From contig RFHZ01000684.1 of NCBI GenBank assembly GCA_003696125.1, forward strand, positions 1 through 5,944: a DNA stretch of 5,944 bases, read 5' to 3'. This document shows, piece after piece, positions 4,270 through 5,944 of the stretch. The notes beneath the pieces are model-generated. The model was not told where the DNA came from. It saw only the letters and a program-made list of their open reading frames with translations, and made no database searches. The position numbers and the translations under genes are program-made. Origin of the DNA: Nitrospinota bacterium (lineage in GTDB: Bacteria; Tectomicrobia; Entotheonellia; J063). Numbering within the stretch: position 1 is the first letter of the stretch; each line of letters opens with the position of its first letter.

Positions 4270-4315
4270 GGCAACTCTATCCAGAACCTGCTCCCCTCAT
4301 CCGGCACCGATTCGA
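4270..4315 (-). repeat. 46-bp direct repeat, distal copy
   Basis: It is identical over 46 bases to 4927-4972, at an offset of 657 bases. Mismatches at 4269/4926 and 4316/4973 bound the exact match. It encodes the tail of a HATPase domain in frame and lies between the antitoxin gene and the REC-PAS-GAF kinase gene. A perfect match of this length is far beyond chance and marks a recombination or insertion boundary. Confidence 0.95.
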
Positions 4316-4372
4316 GGCCAGTTGCTTCTGTCACCCCTTTCCTCCCGTCTTCACCGACCCGGGAAATCTCAT

Positions 4373-4597
4373 TCAGGAAGAAACCCTTTTGGCCTGGCGT
4401 GTAATAATCTCCACCAGAGCCCTCAGGGCCTGATTGACAGATTCGGAATCAGGGAAGACTTTGGCCACGTCAGGATCAAGGACCACAACGTTACTTCCCT
4501 GGGCGTAGCGTTCGGCATATTTCCCACGTACGCCAGCACTGAAGTCGTATTCATCGAGCATCTCTGGATCCTGGTGATCCGGGCTATCCTTCTTCAT
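4373..4597 (-). CDS. BrnA-like / CopG-type antitoxin
   Basis: This 74-residue protein follows a BrnT toxin and overlaps it by 14 bases. A charged N-terminal half carries the motif [20 protein letters not shown] (15-34), which I recognise from small proteins paired with BrnT in many bacteria. The C-terminal half looks like a short ribbon-helix-helix: strand NVVVLDPDV (36-44), then helices around 42-48 and 51-67 ([14 protein letters not shown]). By family knowledge it would bind and neutralise the toxin and repress the operon as a dimer. It lacks the longer linker of the Brucella BrnA, so I leave the symbol blank. ATG 4597 is supported by AGGAGGA placed within the toxin's last codons. The gene ends 133 bases before the large kinase. 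Toxin-first order is normal for brnTA. Confidence 0.85.
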
Positions 4598-4862
4598 AAG
4601 TCCTCCTTTCTCGTCGTGTAGCCAGCCGGGCGCTGATGATACGGATAGTATCTCCTCGCTCTATATGTACTACAACCAGGGTACGATGTCGATACGATCG
4701 GCCAATAATGACGAAACGTTCCTCTCCTACAGAGTGTAAAGGATCAGGGATCGTAAGTGACAGTGGGTCACCGAATACCGTCGCCGCCTCCTCGAAAGAA
4801 ACCCGGTGTTTTCTCCAATTTTCTGCGGCCTTTTTCTCATCCCATGCAAAGGTGAGTCCCAT
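4584..4862 (-). CDS. brnT: BrnT family ribonuclease toxin
   Basis: This 92-residue protein is full length for BrnT (about 90-100). Recognisable family features are the N-terminal [19 protein letters not shown] (5-23, with the D-K-N-K-H pattern), [10 protein letters not shown] (24-33), the [11 protein letters not shown] strand (46-56), the LVVVH strand (62-66) and the C-terminal [19 protein letters not shown] (74-92) with its Arg-rich helix. By family knowledge BrnT has a RelE-like fold, cleaves RNA and slows growth when free of its antitoxin. The chosen ATG 4862 has AGAAGGA five bases upstream, and the protein then begins MGLTFAWDE as homologues do. A TTG at 4895 would add 11 residues without a good ribosome binding site. 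It starts 51 bases after the PAS kinase stop and overlaps the antitoxin by 14 bases. Its GC content is lower than that of the kinases around it. No inactivating change is visible. Confidence 0.93.
4601..4607 (-). promoter_or_regulatory. Ribosome binding site of the antitoxin, nested in the toxin gene
   Basis: AGGAGGA on the minus strand lies three bases before ATG 4597. The same bases are read as part of toxin codons AGG AGG ACT (Arg-Arg-Thr) in its conserved C-terminal RRERRTYEE segment. This supports the 14-base gene overlap and coupled translation of toxin and antitoxin. Confidence 0.75.
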
Positions 4863-4867
4863 AGAGG

Positions 4868-4874
4868 TCCTTCT
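4868..4874 (-). promoter_or_regulatory. Ribosome binding site of brnT
   Basis: AGAAGGA on the minus strand ends five bases before ATG 4862 and selects this ATG over the upstream in-frame TTG at 4895. Confidence 0.7.
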
Positions 4875-4885
4875 CCCCTGGGTCA

Positions 4886-4915
4886 GAGAGGACAAAGAAA
4901 ACCGGCTATCCTCTC
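4886..4915 (-). promoter_or_regulatory. Inverted repeat before brnT, possible operator or weak hairpin
   Basis: GAGAGGA (4915-4909) and TCCTCTC (4892-4886) on the minus strand form a perfect 7-bp inverted repeat with a 16-base spacer. One arm overlaps the PAS kinase stop codon, and the other lies 23 bases before the toxin start. BrnA-type antitoxins repress their own operon through inverted repeats, so an operator is possible. There is no U-tract after the second arm, so it is not a standard terminator. A 7-bp match in purine-rich DNA could also be chance. Confidence 0.3.
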
Positions 4916-5944
4916 ATGATCCTTTGGGCAACTCTATCCAGAACCTGCTCCCCTCATCCGGCACCGATTCGACCCCCACCCGTCCCCCCAGTCGCTCTAT
5001 CCCCTTACGCACAATGGCCAGGCCGATCCCGGTGCCGGGATACGTCTCCGCATCGTGTAACCGTTCAAAGATGCGAAAGATCCGTGCCTGGTGTTCCGGA
5101 GCGATACCGATCCCGTTGTCCTCTACCCAGAGCCGGATCCAGGTATCACGTTCCTCAGCCCGGATCCGGATGAAGGGTCTTTTCCCTGTGGGCACATACT
5201 TCAGGGCATTGCTGAGCAGATTACTCAGCACCTGTATCAATATCGGCTGGTACCCTTGCACCAGGGGTAGCGGCTCGGTAACCGTTACCCGGGCTTCCCG
5301 CTGCTGACATTCCTCCTCCAGGTACCTCAATACCTCGCTGACCGCTGCGGATAGAGGGATCGGTTGCGGGGTAACCTGGGTACGACTGAGGCGGCTATAG
5401 GCCAGCAGATCCTGGATTAAGGCATCCATCCGCTGCGCCGCTTTAACGATGCGTTGGGCGTAGTCCTGCCCGACCGGATCCAGGTGGCCGGCATAGTCTT
5501 CCAGCAGGGCCTGGGCAAAGCCCTGCATGGCTCTTAAAGGAGCGCGGAGATCGTGTGAGACCGAATAGGCAAAGGCCTCCAGCTCTTCGTTGGCTTCCCG
5601 TAACTGGGTGGTCATGGTCTCCAGGTCTCGGTTGGTCGTCTGCAGATCGGCGAGGAGGGTGGTCAGCGTCCGGTTGAGCTGCTCGACCTCGGCAACGCGG
5701 TCCTGTAGTCTCTGCTCCAGCTCCTTCCGGGGCGAGATGTCGATCATGGCACCGATGAAGCCGGTGAAGTTCCCCTTGTCGTCATAGAGGCCGGCCGGTG
5801 CCACCAGGGCGGTAAAACGGGACCCGTCCTTGCGCACCATCTCTGCCTCCACGATGTCGGGAAGGAGTTCTCCTCTTCTCCGCTGCTGCATGCGTTCCAT
5901 TAGCCAGGGACGCTGTTCCGGAGCGATAGGGTCCAGCATGTTCA
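4914..5944 (-). CDS. PAS-domain sensor histidine kinase, C-terminal part (5' end outside window)
   Basis: The frame is open to the right edge. The residues before Met at 5939 continue an open frame, and the sequence starts in the middle of a PAS domain, so the true start lies outside; numbering below counts from that Met. The second half of a PAS/PAC module (about 1-70: EAEMVRKDGSRF, then GFIGAMIDISPRKELE) is followed by a coiled coil (about 70-120). The HisKA domain has H129 in SVSHDLRAPLRA. The HATPase (about 230-338) has N-box SNLLSNALKY, G1 EDNGIGI (273-279), F-box region FERLH (291-295) and G2 GTGIGLAI (302-309), so it should be catalytically active. No receiver is attached and no regulator is adjacent, so its phosphate could go to the receiver of the large kinase downstream (inference). 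Its last codons include the 46-bp repeat also found at 4270-4315, and the ending ELPKGS plus stop may have been supplied by the inserted TA segment. Confidence 0.93.
   Translation of the reverse strand, partial: NMLDPIAPEQRPWLMERMQQRRRGELLPDIVEAEMVRKDGSRFTALVAPAGLYDDKGNFTGFIGAMIDISPRKELEQRLQDRVAEVEQLNRTLTTLLADLQTTNRDLETMTTQLREANEELEAFAYSVSHDLRAPLRAMQGFAQALLEDYAGHLDPVGQDYAQRIVKAAQRMDALIQDLLAYSRLSRTQVTPQPIPLSAAVSEVLRYLEEECQQREARVTVTEPLPLVQGYQPILIQVLSNLLSNALKYVPTGKRPFIRIRAEERDTWIRLWVEDNGIGIAPEHQARIFRIFERLHDAETYPGTGIGLAIVRKGIERLGGRVGVESVPDEGSRFWIELPKGS
4927..4972 (-). repeat. 46-bp direct repeat, proximal copy inside the PAS kinase gene
   Basis: This copy is part of the functional 3' end of the PAS kinase gene. 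It codes for the end of the HATPase domain, just before the last residues PKGS and the stop. It is identical to 4270-4315 and in the same orientation, and the two copies flank the BrnT/BrnA pair. Confidence 0.95.

Follow-up and report, generated by a model that had tools for sequence, protein, structure and literature searches.

A horizontally acquired brnTA toxin–antitoxin operon was probably inserted into a histidine-kinase gene within its final codons, duplicating 46 bp of its target without the help of a recombinase. This reading draws on the anatomy of the locus, on a syntenic locus lacking the pair in a related genome, and on an excess of bracketing direct repeats at toxin–antitoxin (TA) loci. 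Integration of a minimal TA pair at the 3′ end of a protein-coding gene, with that end duplicated and no recombinase involved, had already been put forward in a sequence-only reading of the locus, and the repeats, the ORFs and the TA-less locus in genome G003 agreed with it. The window analyzed here was a whole contig (C61) of 5,944 bp from G000, a 4.18-Mb draft genome in 990 contigs with 8% contamination.

Structure of the Locus

All features described here were on the minus strand of the window. A repeat search of the window revealed a 46-bp direct repeat at 4270–4315 and 4927–4972, identical at 46 of 46 positions and with a distance of 657 bp from start to start; the remaining long direct repeats were matches of 68–90% only. 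An exact match of 46 bases within 5.9 kb is far beyond chance. Based on the reading frame, the copy at 4927–4972 contained the final codons of the histidine-kinase gene that are common to both copies, and the copy at 4270–4315 was a detached kinase tail, joined to the putative native kinase end and to the next gene. The sequence-only reading had described perfect, same-orientation repeats with only brnT and its antitoxin between them, and this description held: two ORFs lay between the copies. The genome-wide search for the 46-mer that it had suggested, with up to three mismatches allowed, located exactly two places in the 4.18-Mb draft, both at this locus. Outside the window locus, neither the TA region nor BrnT had a further match in G000.

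The sequence between the repeats was a 611-bp insert (4316–4926) comprising the TA pair with short margins and nothing else, with a GC content of 52% compared to 60–61% in the flanks. The toxin gene brnT (4584–4862, 92 aa) had an ATG start at 4862, with a TTG-start ORF extending to 4895, and its ORF contained the BrnT_toxin domain PF04365 (104.9 bits against a cut-off of 34.5, E 2.8e-30). The second gene (4373–4597, 74 aa) overlapped the 3′ end of brnT by 14 bp. Its product had no match in Pfam at 0.001 or in NCBIfam at E 1 and did not classify as a BrnA-family antitoxin; the gene was taken as the antitoxin because of its position and because similar ORFs (SVNQALRAL-type) were also present behind brnT at three other loci (L038, L072, and L085). 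The pair therefore resembled BrnTA type II systems in having a PF04365 toxin gene with a small antitoxin gene behind and overlapping it, but differed in that its antitoxin was without a significant Pfam or NCBIfam match and in that repeats of a host gene bracketed the pair. As judged from its sequence, the unit is essentially a promoter, a toxin gene and an antitoxin gene, with predicted toxic activity. No recombinase, integrase or transposase was present among the ORFs of the window, the insert coded for toxin and antitoxin only, and the repeat search of the window revealed no terminal inverted repeats of the insert.

Upstream of the insert was a PAS-HisKA-HATPase histidine-kinase gene (4914–5939), the 5′ part of which was beyond the contig end and the last codons of which came from the insert. 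Downstream was a gene encoding a response regulator-PAS-GAF-histidine kinase (1285–4239), preceded by the detached tail, a possible minigene of 32 codons (4236–4334) with a GTG start and a TGA stop overlapping the ATG of the downstream gene at 4239.

The Two Kinase Ends and the Presumed Earlier Arrangement

The kinase read ...ESVPDEGSRFWIELP, after which the final codons KGS* were supplied by the insert, so that its present end was FWIELPKGS*. The detached copy read ...ESVPDEGSRFWIELPSCRLEKGEER*, with its TGA overlapping the ATG (ATGA) of the response regulator-PAS-GAF-kinase gene at 4239, and ...FWIELPSCRLEKGEER* on this copy is presumably the native kinase end. The sequence-only reading had regarded one copy as the working 3′ end of the kinase and the other as a detached tail. 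The same C-terminus was indeed encoded by both copies, but the one attached to the kinase had the altered end PKGS* and the presumed native end was on the detached copy. The ATGA overlap of the detached tail with the next gene suggests that the kinase and the next gene were adjacent before the arrival of the TA pair. In frame ahead of the detached tail was a GTG codon preceded by a strong ribosome-binding sequence (GGAGGAAAGGG), and the tail may consequently be translated, as a 32-codon leader maintaining the coupling to the next gene.

Four genomes of the same class besides G000 were available for comparison. One of them, G003, contained a relative of the kinase (58% identity over 340 aa) ending in ...GSRFWIELPQAEEPEA*, directly followed on contig C4 by a response-regulator gene with no TA pair between them. 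The protein encoded by the latter was 44% identical to that of the window over the first 297 aa. The sequence-only reading had recommended a comparison of orthologous loci and had considered that a lack of any empty site in relatives would speak against it; G003 provides a syntenic locus without the pair. Since this genome was 77% complete and the kinase, at 58% identity, was that of a distant relative rather than a strain-level empty site, G003 offers moderate support for an uninterrupted target in a related genome.

Other Genes Followed by a Detached Piece of Themselves

Seven further loci (L108, L072, L038, L088, L085, L095, and L110) were examples of a gene accompanied by a detached piece of itself, gene names at these survey loci being taken from translations and not from a family search. 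At L108, an hldE-like gene had a 145-bp repeat (99%), the copies of which ended in ...RRSKEPMDH and ...RRPKGSS*. Gene ends were repeated over 109 bp at L072, 98 bp at L038 and 58 bp at L085, and the end of trpB was repeated over 62 bp at L088, in Thiobacillus denitrificans RG. The inserts in the clear cases were mostly 530–670 bp, comprising a short upstream region, two genes and a short tail. The repeat sequence varied by locus and was always local sequence, and no common motif was detected when insert ends were compared across loci. The sources of the repeats at other brnTA loci included the trpB end, an MFS transporter end, the end of a DUF393-like gene and the hldE-like gene, among others. 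Spread at conserved kinase tails, as had been suggested from the window sequence, was consequently rejected as kinase-specific targeting, because the repeats at other brnTA loci came from different and unrelated local genes. Four loci (L057, L058, L088, and L089), at least three of them from Betaproteobacteria, had common flanking DNA, with brnT at the corresponding place (∼4000–4500); among them a long flanking repeat was present in L088 only, where brnT was right behind the trpB-like gene.

In Nitrospira, the pair was found at two sites (L110, 3863–3928 and 4760–5074; L096, 3859–5160). In L095 and L096, an MFS-type transporter gene preceded the TA pair and a second transporter tail followed it. 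The transporter region of L110 was 91.5% identical to that of L096 over 1.7 kb. In L110, the pair was behind a DUF393-like gene and was followed by a ∼310-bp detached copy of the end of that gene; in L096, the DUF393-like gene had no TA pair behind it within the sequence examined. The pair at the second site (L110 and L099) still had a copy of the transporter tail, which was upstream of the TA pair in L110. Judging from these sequences, brnTA occupies two neighboring sites in related Nitrospira genomes, each site being empty in the other genome. This arrangement may reflect either a move of the pair or a tandem duplication of the block with subsequent trimming.

Direct Repeats around Toxin–Antitoxin Loci

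The BrnT survey began with 80 loci, to which further ones were added by genome search, and 172 had enough flanking sequence. Spanning repeats were scored with +1 for a match and -2 for a mismatch, at spacings of up to 1500. Direct repeats with a score of at least 40 bracketed the toxin gene at 22 of the 172 BrnT loci, compared to 10 of 1014 control anchors placed elsewhere in these loci; with the threshold lowered to a score of 25, the values were 29/172 and 23/1014. In a comparable genome set, repeats scoring at least 30 were found at 9 of 67 ParE and 3 of 49 PIN loci, and at only one of 68 glyoxalase loci and one of 47 loci of ArsR-type HTH regulators, which served as non-TA controls. Pooled at this threshold, and with three integron-like BrnT loci (L145, L124, and L191) left out of the TA count, 35 of 285 TA loci (BrnT, ParE, and PIN; about one in eight) had bracketing repeats versus two of 115 non-TA small-gene loci (Fisher p = 2.7e-4, in a test that treats loci as independent although some, such as the trpB and Nitrospira groups, are related). 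Restricted to the shared genome set, the TA count was 23/210 (p = 0.0014). The survey was modest and its repeat classes were mixed, with three resembling integron attC sites and two resembling interspersed repeats, so that not all are target duplications.

Several individual loci of the survey may be mentioned. At L424 (G004:C99), from the class of the window, a PIN-domain toxin gene was located between 283-bp direct repeats (95%) at 1182–1464 and 2246–2528, in the second of which the final part of a 2-hydroxyacid dehydrogenase-like gene could be read. The gene for an ArsR-type regulator at L439 (G022:C16), a non-TA control, was bracketed by a 91-bp repeat (87%; 1294–1384, spacing 522), and a control stretch of L084 (Methylococcaceae) contained a 93-bp direct repeat (5421–5513 and 775 bp further on) with TA-like spacing. 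BrnT matches at L119, L120, L121, L129, L130, and L136 had one in-frame stop each and are possibly decaying toxin genes.

Proposed Course of the Insertion and Its Alternatives

Under the insertion reading, a horizontally acquired brnTA would have entered the final codons of the kinase gene, and the 46-bp target would have been doubled. The kinase would remain complete with a slightly altered C-terminus, while the next gene would retain its original upstream tail. Joining would probably have occurred when a fragment was ligated at a staggered break with fill-in or, alternatively, by template switching that re-entered the target behind its exit point. The element encodes no recombinase and has no defined end. 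A long duplication spares both neighboring genes, so such insertions would survive, which amounts to a selection effect. If the repeats later recombined, the pair would be lost and the cell could be left exposed to the toxin; the addiction effect may thus preserve the repeats, which are perhaps retained because any such deletion takes the antitoxin with it. In published tests, E. coli dinJ-yafQ and ccdO157 failed to prevent large deletions (PMC2654758), and on this account the addiction effect may not extend to all TA pairs.

The structure could also be the product of Campbell-type integration, in which one homologous crossover would have taken up a circle bearing the TA pair and the 46-bp tail that had been excised at this gene in a different strain. 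Such an integration yields exactly a tail, the TA pair and a tail as perfect repeats, and the transporter tail borne by the pair at its second site in L110 and L099 indicates that pair and tail can travel or be copied together. This explanation is nevertheless unlikely: it requires a prior insertion at the same gene and leaves the first event unexplained, 46 bp is short for RecA-type recombination, and the second site in L110 had its own target duplication of ∼310 bp, which was not homologous to the carried tail. Still less likely at the window is a tandem duplication of the kinase tail and a TA pair that originally lay behind the kinase without repeats, followed by loss of one pair. Duplication and deletion can yield the same structure at some loci and could account for the Nitrospira arrangement with tails of two neighboring genes, but in the window an earlier intervening TA pair would have destroyed the ATGA overlap between the detached tail and the next gene.

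Mobilization in trans, of which the sequence-only reading had also spoken, would make the unit a genuine small mobile element or a gene cassette (an integron cassette, a pdif module or a non-autonomous transposon). TA pairs in integron cassettes are known (PMC2654758), and three of the surveyed brnT loci (L145, L124 in G065, and L191 in G229) were between attC-like repeats, apparently as cassettes of integrons; in the genus of G229, regions rich in repeats were found time and again. The repeat of the window, however, was kinase coding sequence confined to this locus within the genome, the window contained neither an integrase gene nor a terminal inverted repeat, and insert ends varied between loci. 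An enzyme recognizing the ends of the unit is unsupported, because these ends have no common motif or terminal inverted repeat, and mobilization in trans is very improbable. An assembly artefact, which a 990-contig draft with 8% contamination might bring to mind, is the most remote of these explanations. Positions 5846–5944 of the window equaled positions 1–99 of contig C111, exactly 99 bp common to both contigs, suggesting an assembly k of 99; the 46-bp repeat is shorter than this value, which makes an artefact unlikely, and the same anatomy was observed in other genomes, including that of T. denitrificans RG (L088), which is not labeled as a MAG. Contig C111 ran on into related sensor-kinase sequence.

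Relation to Known Insertion Modes

Insertion with long target duplication is known for restriction-modification genes (Nobusato et al., 2000; Furuta et al., 2010; via PMC3874152 and PMC3031569), where a review gives the duplication as “in the order of 100 bp”. As portrayed in these reviews, such insertions share with the window an addictive two-gene unit, a long and variable direct target duplication and no linked mobile element. The window had a duplicated target on both sides, an uninterrupted relative (G003) and no transposase, integrase or terminal inverted repeats. It differed from the published cases in having a type II TA pair as its unit, with an insert of 611 bp and a duplication of 46 bp, and in that the hosts of the related TA cases were taxonomically scattered. 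By analogy, the window would work like a long-target-duplication insertion of restriction-modification genes in which a TA pair replaces the restriction-modification pair, and it falls outside the published set because its unit is brnTA. A report of a TA pair with long target duplication was not found in the open-access literature searched, which is no proof of novelty; the TA-mobility passage of the review on restriction-modification insertions and the passages found in two TA reviews (PMC7167474 and PMC2654758) say nothing of this mode in connection with TA pairs.

Superintegron TA cassettes are likewise small TA units between repeats of ∼50–130 bp, but their attC sites are common to many cassettes and used by the integrase, whereas the repeat of the window was local coding sequence in two copies. 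The 46-mer was restricted to the window locus and no integrase was encoded in the window, unlike the shared attC sites and nearby integrase of integron cassettes. Tyrosine-recombinase islands at 3′ gene ends also show a regenerated gene end with direct repeats on both sides, but carry an integrase inside the repeats; the insert of the window, at 0.6 kb, contained toxin and antitoxin and no integrase, and the repeats varied from locus to locus.

Implications

TA pairs are regarded as highly mobile, and lone chromosomal pairs often lie outside any mobile element. The repeats around about one in eight of the examined TA loci, from unrelated bacteria, hint at how such pairs move. A recurrent scar, with the TA pair between long local direct repeats, makes TA entry testable, as insertions become datable and mappable, and deletion rates should differ measurably if addiction preserves the repeats. 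Such a scar would also link TA pairs to the mode of insertion hitherto reported for restriction-modification genes. As a tentative generalization, for which the balance tilts slightly to the negative side, type II TA operons might be minimal self-sufficient mobile units, inserting at gene ends by recombinase-free target duplication, with addiction keeping the flanking repeats. If true, TA mobility would be recognizable throughout bacteria by a diagnostic scar, the bracketing repeats.
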